This document shows positions 57,466-59,016 of a stretch of 64,000 nt of DNA, piece by piece. The stretch's first letter is position 1. Each line of letters opens with the position of its first letter. The DNA comes from Streptococcus uberis (GTDB taxonomy: Bacteria; Bacillota; Bacilli; Lactobacillales; Streptococcaceae), in the NCBI RefSeq assembly GCF_900475595.1, contig NZ_LS483397.1, positions 1,149,001 to 1,213,000 on the forward strand. Direction: 5' to 3'. The notes under the pieces are model-generated. The model was not told where the DNA came from. It did not search any database and saw only the letters and a list, made by a program, of their open reading frames with translations. A program made the position numbers and the translations under genes.

Positions 57466-58689
57466 TTAATTTGCCAGATTGCTATAGATAGATGATTTTA
57501 AATTTTTAATAGATAGCATGGCAATAAATGAGATGATGTATAGCGATGCTAGGAAAATCATAACCATTGGAACGCCAGAAGCATCTAAAATTTTACCGAT
57601 GATTACTGACGAGAATCCACCGATAGCTCGTCCCACATTAAGAATGACATTGTTAGCCGTTGAACGAATGTGGTGTGGATAAAGTCTTGTAATCATTGCC
57701 CCGTAACCTGCAAACATTCCGTTGACGAAGAAACCTACAATTGCCCCACCGATAATCATTGTCGGCATTGAGTTGGCAAACTGGAAGAGGTAGACACAAA
57801 TGGAAGAGGCTAGTAAGAATACTGTATACACTAGTCTTGGTCCAAATTTATCTAAAATTTGTCCAAAGGTGAGCATCCCTAGACACATTCCTAGAATGGT
57901 TGATACCATCCAAAGTGAGGAATCTTTTACGGAAATATTGAGGCTTGTTTGAATGATAGTTGGTAACCAGTTCATCATACCAAAGTATCCTGCAATTTGT
58001 ACTGTTGTCATCACCATCAAAGCTAAAGTTTGCGCTGTTAAAGTTGGGCTCTTAAAGAGTTGGTTGATTTTGACAGGTTGGCTTGTTTCTTCTGACTCAT
58101 TTCCTCCCTTGTCCCAAATCTTGTCATCGTCGATTGAAAGCTTCATCCAAAGCACTAATAAGATTGGGGCTAAACCAAATAAGAAGAGTCCTCTCCATCC
58201 CAAGGCTGGTGCTAACCACCCTGCTAGTAATGCTGAGGTGATTGATCCTACCTGCCCTGCAATTCCGTTAAGGGATGAAATACGTCCCATTTTTTCAGGC
58301 GGAACAATCCCTGCCATGATGGCAATGGCAACACCATACTCACCACCGACACCAATACCAGCGATAAAACGCATGATGTAGAGGTATTCGATACTTTTAG
58401 TGAAGTAAATCAAACCTGTTGCAATAGAGAAAACTAAGATTGTCCACTTAAAGACTTTAAATTTATGATGTCTATCTGCTAATAAGCCAAATAGTAAACC
58501 ACCTACTAACATTCCTAGGTTGGTAATGGTCGCAATCCAACCACCTTGAGCTCCTGTTATACCCAATTCTGTGATGATGGATGACATGGAAAAGGCTAGG
58601 AACATGACATTTAAGTCATCCGTTCCAGAGGCTACGATAGCGGCAGCTAGGGCACGCGCATTGTTTTTGTCTAAAGACAATTTTGACAT
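57466..58689 (-). CDS. MFS transporter, aromatic-acid:H+ symporter-like; candidate pyrimidine-precursor transporter
   Basis: 407 residues, twelve membrane helices. The DxxNVMFLAF first helix, GLLADRHHKFKVF (loop 2-3, MFS signature), and IAGIGVGGEYGVAIAIMAGIVPPEKMGRISSLNG (helix 4-5) place it in the AAHS/sugar-phosphate-like branch for organic acids. The leader carries a PyrR-type attenuator. That suggests the substrate is a pyrimidine-pathway compound such as orotate, itself an aromatic acid. The family call is firm; the substrate is inference from regulation. Ribosome site AAAAGGAG precedes ATG 58689. Confidence 0.85.
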   Translation of the reverse strand: MSKLSLDKNNARALAAAIVASGTDDLNVMFLAFSMSSIITELGITGAQGGWIATITNLGMLVGGLLFGLLADRHHKFKVFKWTILVFSIATGLIYFTKSIEYLYIMRFIAGIGVGGEYGVAIAIMAGIVPPEKMGRISSLNGIAGQVGSITSALLAGWLAPALGWRGLFLFGLAPILLVLWMKLSIDDDKIWDKGGNESEETSQPVKINQLFKSPTLTAQTLALMVMTTVQIAGYFGMMNWLPTIIQTSLNISVKDSSLWMVSTILGMCLGMLTFGQILDKFGPRLVYTVFLLASSICVYLFQFANSMPTMIIGGAIVGFFVNGMFAGYGAMITRLYPHHIRSTANNVILNVGRAIGGFSSVIIGKILDASGVPMVMIFLASLYIISFIAMLSIKNLKSSIYSNLAN

Positions 58690-58751
58690 AAATTTCTCCT
58701 TTTAATAGTAGCTCACTGTCTACCTTAATTAATTGAATACCCTTTAAAGTC

Positions 58752-58783
58752 AAAAAAAGACTCAAGCGCATGGCGTGAGTCTT
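58752..58783 (-). terminator. Attenuator terminator in the MFS transporter leader
   Basis: Leftward AAGACTCACGC-catgc-GCTTGAGTCTT followed by seven T, about 60 bases before the MFS ATG. The 5' arm contains CTCACG, which can pair with CGTGAG of the PyrR-binding loop upstream. Confidence 0.85.
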
Positions 58784-58795
58784 AAAGGCTACAGA

Positions 58796-58822
58796 AAATA
58801 AGAGGATAGCAACTATTCTCTT
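58796..58822 (-). promoter_or_regulatory. Middle hairpin of the PyrR-type leader
   Basis: Leftward AAGAGAATAG-ttg-CTATCCTCTT, ten positions with one mismatch, between the PyrR-binding loop and the terminator. Confidence 0.6.
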
Positions 58823-58834
58823 CTTTGTGACTTT

Positions 58835-58852
58835 CATGCCTCACGGGACATG
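58835..58852 (-). promoter_or_regulatory. PyrR-binding loop (pyrimidine-responsive attenuator)
   Basis: Leftward CATG-TCCCGTGAGG-CATG. The ten-base loop fits the PyrR RNA-binding pattern UCCNGNGAGG and sits on a closing CATG/CATG stem. The part from 58853 to 58950 is AT-rich and should hold the promoter; -10 like TATACT is seen near 58877-58882. The rest of the 384-base gap to 59074 belongs to the DUF1846 promoter. Confidence 0.8.
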
Positions 58853-59016
58853 GTTTAAAGCAGTATTTAATTGTAATCAGTATAATTGAAAAAATGAGAA
58901 TTGTCAATACTATTTTCTTTTTTAATGATTTTTTTTGGAAATGTCTTGTTTTTTACGGAGTTCATTCGGAATTTAATAAGCAGTTTTGATTTTTCAAAAG
59001 AAATCATACAGATTTT

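Follow-up and report, generated by a model that had tools for sequence, protein, structure and literature searches.

The available text of PMC6296669 describes three PyrR leaders in Streptococcus pneumoniae, of which two precede pyr operons and the third a uracil transporter; the pyr operons respond to uracil, and mutants of one leader were studied. The leader analyzed here precedes a gene of the major facilitator superfamily (MFS) and lies in the window, the whole stretch of 64,000 nucleotides of Streptococcus uberis DNA that was examined. As in the pyr leaders described for S. pneumoniae (RF00515), a PyrR hairpin, an antiterminator and a terminator are found in one leader. In contrast to those leaders, the gene downstream is neither a pyr biosynthesis gene nor a uracil permease gene of the NCS2 family, and the terminator is followed by another hairpin. 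Attenuation by PyrR is known, in S. pneumoniae as well; what would be new, judged from the literature searched, is the MFS gene as a target and the second hairpin close to the Shine-Dalgarno sequence.

PyrR reportedly represses translation in Mycobacterium smegmatis, going by the title of a 2007 study by Fields and Switzer. An operator of the mycobacterial type is a PyrR-type loop next to the ribosome-binding site, and such a loop is present in the second hairpin of the S. uberis leader and conserved in relatives. The action proposed here would likewise be on translation, but in another phylum, combined with attenuation in one leader, and directed at a transporter, pyrD or pyrB.

Two described orotate transporters can be compared with the MFS protein. 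OroP of Lactococcus lactis is an orotate transporter (TC 2.A.7.21.4) encoded by a gene of 0.9 kb, according to the available text of PMC12802215. The protein studied here shares with OroP the proposed substrate and the occurrence in lactic acid bacteria, but it belongs to the MFS (PF07690), the two being set apart by family listing. The number TC 2.A.7.21.4 falls in the DMT superfamily. In E. coli and Salmonella orotate is taken up by the C4-dicarboxylate transporter DctA, as stated in the available part of PMC13328217. DctA thus resembles the present transporter in its proposed substrate. Its protein family is a different one, and DctA is not known to be under PyrR control. A PyrR-controlled MFS orotate importer or PyrR hairpins proximal to the Shine-Dalgarno sequence in Lactobacillales were not found in the literature searched, which consisted of partial texts and did not include the main reviews, so that an earlier mention is possible; in the available main text of PMC3766115, a survey of RF00515 regulons, neither orotate nor MFS appears.

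The features of the locus, all on the minus strand, are the following:
58879..58907, minus strand: sigma-70 promoter TTGACA-17-TATACT, matching 11 of 12 consensus positions.
58831..58860, minus strand: hairpin 1, PyrR-type binding hairpin (anti-antiterminator), based on RF00515 (44.2 bits), the fold and pair counts over attenuator hairpins.
58769..58779, minus strand: CTCACGCCATG, antiterminator 3' arm, from the fold without the terminator 3' arm (-20.7 kcal/mol).
58752..58783, minus strand: intrinsic terminator AAGACTCACGCCATGCGCTTGAGTC-TTTTTTT with a run of seven T, from the sequence; the isolated hairpin has -11.8 kcal/mol.
58702..58732, minus strand: hairpin 2, proposed second PyrR site, based on covariation, enrichment and model R1 (57.1 bits).
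58696..58701, minus strand: Shine-Dalgarno sequence AAGGAG, directly 3' of hairpin 2, from the sequence.
57466..58689, minus strand: MFS transporter gene, 407 aa, candidate orotate importer, based on PF07690 (E 1.8e-50), NCBIfam and the context in relatives.

This arrangement suggests that the candidate orotate importer is likely shut down by PyrR at two successive steps when pyrimidines are plentiful. In the first step, attenuation, PyrR with UMP would hold hairpin 1 closed, no antiterminator would form and the terminator at 58752-58783 would stop transcription; without PyrR-UMP the antiterminator would form and transcription would continue. In the second step PyrR on hairpin 2 would block the access of ribosomes to the Shine-Dalgarno sequence next to it. 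The imported orotate would enter UMP synthesis via PyrE and PyrF.

The initial annotation had described a PyrR-type loop on a CATG/CATG stem before the MFS gene, with a CGTGAG/CTCACG pairing that gives mutually exclusive structures, and both the fold and the family search agree with it. From the promoter the leader runs through hairpin 1 and the terminator to the start codon at 58689, with 18 nt between the promoter end and hairpin 1. The hairpin CATG-TCCCGTGAGG-CATG at 58835-58852 (minus strand) is nested in the longer CUUU...AAAG hairpin at 58831-58860, so that hairpin 1 consists of a lower stem (CUUU/AAAG), an A-rich 5' bulge, an upper stem and the hexaloop CCGUGA. The arm CTCACGCCATG pairs with the CATG...CGTGAG segment of hairpin 1 and overlaps the terminator 5' arm. 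Folded in full, the attenuator forms the hairpin and the terminator (-29.2 kcal/mol, z -2.33, with 4 of 200 shuffles equally good), whereas with the terminator 3' arm left off the antiterminator fold is obtained, with CGTGAG/CTCACG and CATG/CATG pairing, at -20.7 kcal/mol. The leader has, therefore, mutually exclusive antiterminator and terminator folds. A pattern scan for terminators reported none in the MFS leader, probably because mismatches close to the tip give a loop that exceeds the length allowed by the scan. Pairing of hairpin 1 with the terminator arm scored only z -1.1 against shuffled arms in the window, and over relatives 23 of the 29 scored rows were below z -1, some rows being spurious and not attenuators; this scoring was crude, with five more rows lacking a terminator and a wrong terminator chosen in one locus (L013, z +1.3).

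The Rfam PyrR model RF00515 matched the whole MFS leader over its full length with 44.2 bits (E 6.6e-5 in a stretch of 481 bases, 6.3e-5 in the genome of 1,975,601 bases). This score is under the gathering cut-off of 54, which explains why a default Rfam scan missed the leader. At E<0.01 the model found three places in the genome, located before pyrR-pyrP (77.2 bits), pyrF-pyrE (48.8 bits) and the MFS gene, which is the third-best match; weaker places had E values from 0.02 to 1. Both the RF00515 alignment and the pair counts place in hairpin 1 the hexaloop CNGNGA and the 5' bulge of a PyrR hairpin. The motif TCCNGNGAGG alone is at chance level, with one match against 0.80 expected in the window and at least one match in 58 of 100 shuffles. 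Other Rfam matches near the leader (TUG1_2, rli60, MIR166 and others) were far under their cut-offs and were taken as chance. The pneumococcal sRNA SpF44 (RF02437) aligned weakly at 58749-58854 on the minus strand (21.9 bits, cut-off 70); its consensus has the loop UCCcGUGAgG, and SpF44 itself may be a PyrR leader.

Conservation was analyzed at 78 loci with relatives of the transporter, obtained from a scan of named genomes and including 25 from Streptococcus. The expectation that the PyrR loop would recur upstream of orthologs was borne out for paired variants and not for the exact loop: only 7 of the 78 relatives had TCCNGNGAGG in the 500 nt upstream, a test that is too strict since the loop-closing pairs vary, and variants such as TTCCGTGAGA or TCCTGTGAGA, which are paired, are found upstream in most streptococci. 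Two models were constructed, R1 trained on hairpin 2 only and R2 trained on attenuator hairpins (hairpin 1) only. R1 was run on all 78 loci and R2 on a part of them. Both hairpins were found at 22 of the 25 Streptococcus loci, whose sequences are all in the R1 training set and, for 21 of the 22, in that of R2. The presence of the R2 hairpin at these loci, together with its compensating changes across Streptococcus, upholds the initial proposal of PyrR-type attenuation of the MFS gene. The three loci without the hairpin pair are more distant copies from S. danieliae (two) and Streptococcus sp. 121, which lay outside the R2 set and in which a pattern search for the attenuator hairpin found none. 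At the seven loci divergent from pyrF, R2 places an attenuator-type hairpin solely on the pyrF side, indicating that hairpin 2 there precedes the transporter without an attenuator hairpin.

Hairpin 2, located beside the Shine-Dalgarno sequence, was overlooked in the initial annotation. Together with the Shine-Dalgarno sequence it reads UUAAU-UAA-GGUAGA-CAGUGA-GCUACU-AUUAA-AAGGAG, with a lower stem UUAAU/AUUAA, a 3-nt bulge UAA, 6-nt arms GGUAGA/GCUACU, closed by an A-G that is not a standard pair, and the hexaloop CAGUGA. This is the layout of a PyrR hairpin, namely a hexaloop CNGNGA, an A-rich 5' bulge and two stems. Its last base lies directly before AAGGAG, and over the relatives the lower stem either reaches just to the Shine-Dalgarno sequence or extends into it. 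Counted as a loop C.G.GA on at least 4 pairs within 90 nt of the start, such hairpins were present at 44 of the 78 relatives, against a mean of 0.57 in dinucleotide shuffles (maximum 5 in 200). Other reading frames of the same loci had one in 7 of 486 cases, three of which were pyrF.

The 44 aligned sequences, picked for the loop and at least 4 pairs, a choice that favours the upper stem and not the lower, had 95.8% of cells paired and 102 two-sided changes, compared with 29 in shuffles, and slid versions of the alignment were 30-56% paired. Two-sided changes (UA to AU or CG) were also observed in the lower stem. Among five measures, one was not outstanding: the number of pairs with a two-sided change was 8, against 6.5 in shuffles, and was reached by 47 of 500. 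R1 found hairpin 2 before 60 of the 78 transporter genes, 17 of which were untrained and had mostly the five-base loop CGAGA; the remaining 18 loci were without it. By the position of pyrF, the matches fell on 21 of the 33 loci with an upstream same-strand pyrF, on all 7 with a divergent pyrF and on 32 of the 38 with neither arrangement.

Hairpin 2 recurred mostly beside pyrimidine genes when R1 was applied to whole genomes without being told of them. In the genome of the window the MFS leader, with 57.1 bits, was the sole match up to E 5. Among 147 Streptococcus genomes R1 gave 19 matches, 18 of them beside an MFS start, and 18 of the 19 MFS-bearing genomes had a match, the exception being G111. 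The 217 Lactobacillales genomes contained 64 sites in 59 genomes, 50 of which were at an MFS start (49 by script, and one in G280 a single base outside its limit). Nine of the 14 non-MFS sites were examined: untrained hairpins lay directly before pyrD in five cases (L112, L114, L115, L119 and L120) and before pyrB in one (L113), another was at a broken MFS copy, and two lay inside reading frames (L116, E 0.033, and L118, E 0.26) and were probably chance matches. The other five (G210, G263, G270, G298 and G306) lie about 2.8 kb from pyrC, as do four of the five pyrD cases.

The distribution of PyrR was then compared with that of hairpin 2. The genome of the window encodes PyrR (L001; NF003548, 307.7 bits), and a match was found in 45 of 49 genomes checked. 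Hairpin 2 was present in 39 of these 45 and in none of the four genomes without a PyrR match (L053, L055, L057 and L085, the first two being MAGs). PyrR matches were thus lacking in 0 of 39 hairpin 2-bearing genomes against 4 of 10 others (p 0.001); of the ten, six have PyrR.

An alternative accepts PyrR control of the attenuator and orotate import by the transporter but regards hairpin 2 as a separate RNA element that resembles a PyrR loop by chance and serves, for instance, mRNA stability or another RNA-binding protein. The two hairpin classes are indeed similar in layout and not in detail: the lower stems differ (CUUU/AAAG in hairpin 1, UUAAU/AUUAA in hairpin 2), and R2 recovered weakly 2 of 47 hairpin 2 sites at E up to 10, one at pyrD (L114, E 0.51) and one at an MFS gene (L020, E 9). 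With so low a recovery, the link of hairpin 2 with PyrR rests on the loop, the bulge and stem layout and the genes. Its stability, which is marginal, is also unremarkable for its composition (z 0.16 in the window, -0.8 to +0.8 in four other loci), and with z near 0 thermodynamic stability was discarded as support by itself; a hairpin that is weak alone is, however, what is expected if PyrR must hold it. Against a separate element stand the features common to both hairpins, the hexaloop CNGNGA, the A-rich 5' bulge (mostly 3 nt) and the 6-nt upper arms, as well as the untrained targets pyrD and pyrB, the absence of hairpin 2 from the four loci of genomes without a PyrR match, and the eight control loops, which were found in 0 or 1 of the 78 upstream regions. 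We consider a separate element unlikely, and the best reading of hairpin 2 is a putative PyrR operator through which translation would be controlled in addition to attenuation.

On this reading of hairpin 2 it seems fairly likely that a further class of PyrR operator exists in the Lactobacillales. It would be a short hairpin bordering the Shine-Dalgarno sequence, would act on translation and would occur at a widespread MFS family that imports orotate as well as, in some genera, at pyrD and pyrB. In streptococci it would come after a classical attenuator, and the same message would be checked twice by one protein. If true, this would extend translational control by PyrR from mycobacteria to Firmicutes, with attenuation on one message.

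Two other PyrR-type arrangements were noticed. In the pyrF leader of Jeotgalibaca caeni (L066:2378-2416, minus strand) a PyrR hairpin lies directly before the ribosome-binding site, and this pyrF may also be under translational control. The 19th R1 match in Streptococcus belongs to a genome without an MFS match (G130, L106:1320-1990), in a gap between two genes, putatively argG and argH. This gap contains a tandem series of four PyrR-type hairpins, at about 1423, 1483, 1515 and 1545, and a terminator-like stem comes after the fourth; arginine synthesis, which has carbamoyl phosphate in common with the pyrimidine pathway, may be under the control of pyrimidines at this site.

The product of the MFS gene passed the Pfam gathering test for MFS_1 (172.3 bits, cut-off 33.4) and is 96% identical, in the best segment, to its counterpart in S. 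bovimastitidis. Its placement in an organic or aromatic acid branch holds as an approximate label only, since TIGR00895 (aromatic acid:H+ symporter) was the best NCBIfam match but its curated cut-off was not reached (224.8 vs 418.55 bits), and the protein is not a member of these symporters by that measure. Orotate import, initially a guess from the family, now has evidence from gene context and from presence and absence patterns. Clustering of neighbouring reading frames showed pyrF/pyrE adjoining the MFS gene at 40 of the 78 loci, as pyrF-pyrE-MFS on the same strand in 33 and with divergent pyrF in 7, the other 38 having neither; representatives of these neighbours were confirmed by family search as orotidine-5'-phosphate decarboxylase and orotate phosphoribosyltransferase.

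The presence of PyrC and PyrR was determined in 49 genomes, from 50 of the 78 loci and without completeness figures, with a single dihydroorotase type (TIGR00857) in the search. PyrC was over the cut-off in 35 of the 49. Among the rest, G159 (S. danieliae), G166, G177, G183, G189, G191 and G192 yielded no PyrC over the cut-off and no dihydroorotate dehydrogenase of full length, and the same holds, with reservations, for G171 (a fragment), G175 (a MAG) and G190 (PyrC at 272.9 bits, just under the cut-off). Genomes with this double absence include those of Facklamia hominis (L032), F. languida (L056), Atopobacter phocae (L067), Atopococcus tabaci (L068) and Lacticigenium naphthae (L069). Where both enzymes are missing, orotate would have to come from outside for PyrE, and we predict that some bacteria such as Facklamia, Atopobacter and Lacticigenium live on imported orotate or on other salvage. 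The genome of the window has PyrC, so this host need not depend on orotate import.

A wider count covered 217 Lactobacillales genomes that were at least 90% complete, with transporter matches accepted up to E 1e-60. The transporter was found in 84, PyrC in 190 and PyrE in 205 of these genomes. Among the 27 PyrC-less genomes, seven of which were assigned by absence from the 190 PyrC positives, the transporter was present in 13 of the 15 with PyrE, two lacking it, and in 0 of the 12 without PyrE; it was present in 71 of the 190 with both PyrC and PyrE. Fisher tests compared the 13 of 15 with the 190 (p 2.3e-4) and with the 12 (p 6e-6); these values are too small because relatedness was ignored. 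These patterns, together with the pyrE and pyrF neighbours, make import of orotate by the MFS gene product well supported by inference.

It is rather doubtful that the transporter carries instead one or more other pyrimidine-related compounds, for example dihydroorotate, a nucleoside or a nucleobase. Many organic acids are substrates of AAHS-like transporters, and some genomes (L037 and L022) have no PyrC over the cut-off and keep a full-length dihydroorotate dehydrogenase, so that dihydroorotate would serve as well; moreover, a relative of 48% identity lies beside nucleoside phosphorylase and deoB genes. On the other hand, import of a nucleoside or of uracil would require neither PyrE nor PyrF, whereas the MFS gene is linked to pyrE and pyrF, none of the 12 PyrE-less genomes has the transporter, and it is kept where PyrC and full-length dihydroorotate dehydrogenase were both not found. 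That the protein is an overflow valve which exports orotate, or an acid related to it, is very improbable: pyrimidine regulation alone says nothing on direction, but the transporter is kept in genomes seemingly unable to make orotate, and being repressed by PyrR when UMP is high makes sense for an importer and not for a valve. A chance resemblance of the MFS leader to a PyrR attenuator, in line with the 0.8 expected matches of the ten-base motif in the window and the RF00515 score under the gathering cut-off, is scarcely credible given the full-length RF00515 match (E 6.3e-5 in the genome) and the attenuator hairpin with compensating changes at 22 of 25 Streptococcus loci.

Orotate import under PyrR control would assign a probable substrate and a probable regulator to a transporter family that is represented in 84 of the 217 Lactobacillales genomes, relatives below 50% identity possibly differing in function. 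Hairpin 2 was present at the gene in 40 of the 50 Lactobacillales genomes whose MFS protein is at least 50% identical and in 9 of the 34 below 50%, and this much lower frequency suggests that the wider MFS family may be mixed. The 48% relative, on an Enterococcus gallinarum plasmid (L110:2929-6120), lies between a PucR-type regulator and the nucleoside phosphorylase and deoB genes, a context from which the wider family may include nucleoside carriers.

Orotate is said to occur in milk, according to the available text of PMC12802215, and in experimental Streptococcus uberis mastitis it fell to 0.03 of its starting level (Thomas et al., as given in the available text of PMC11598933). This drop is consistent with use of orotate by such bacteria, although it may have other causes. 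At the other end of the window, a match to the trpB RNA motif (RF04312) was observed at 419-522 on the minus strand, with 67.6 bits.
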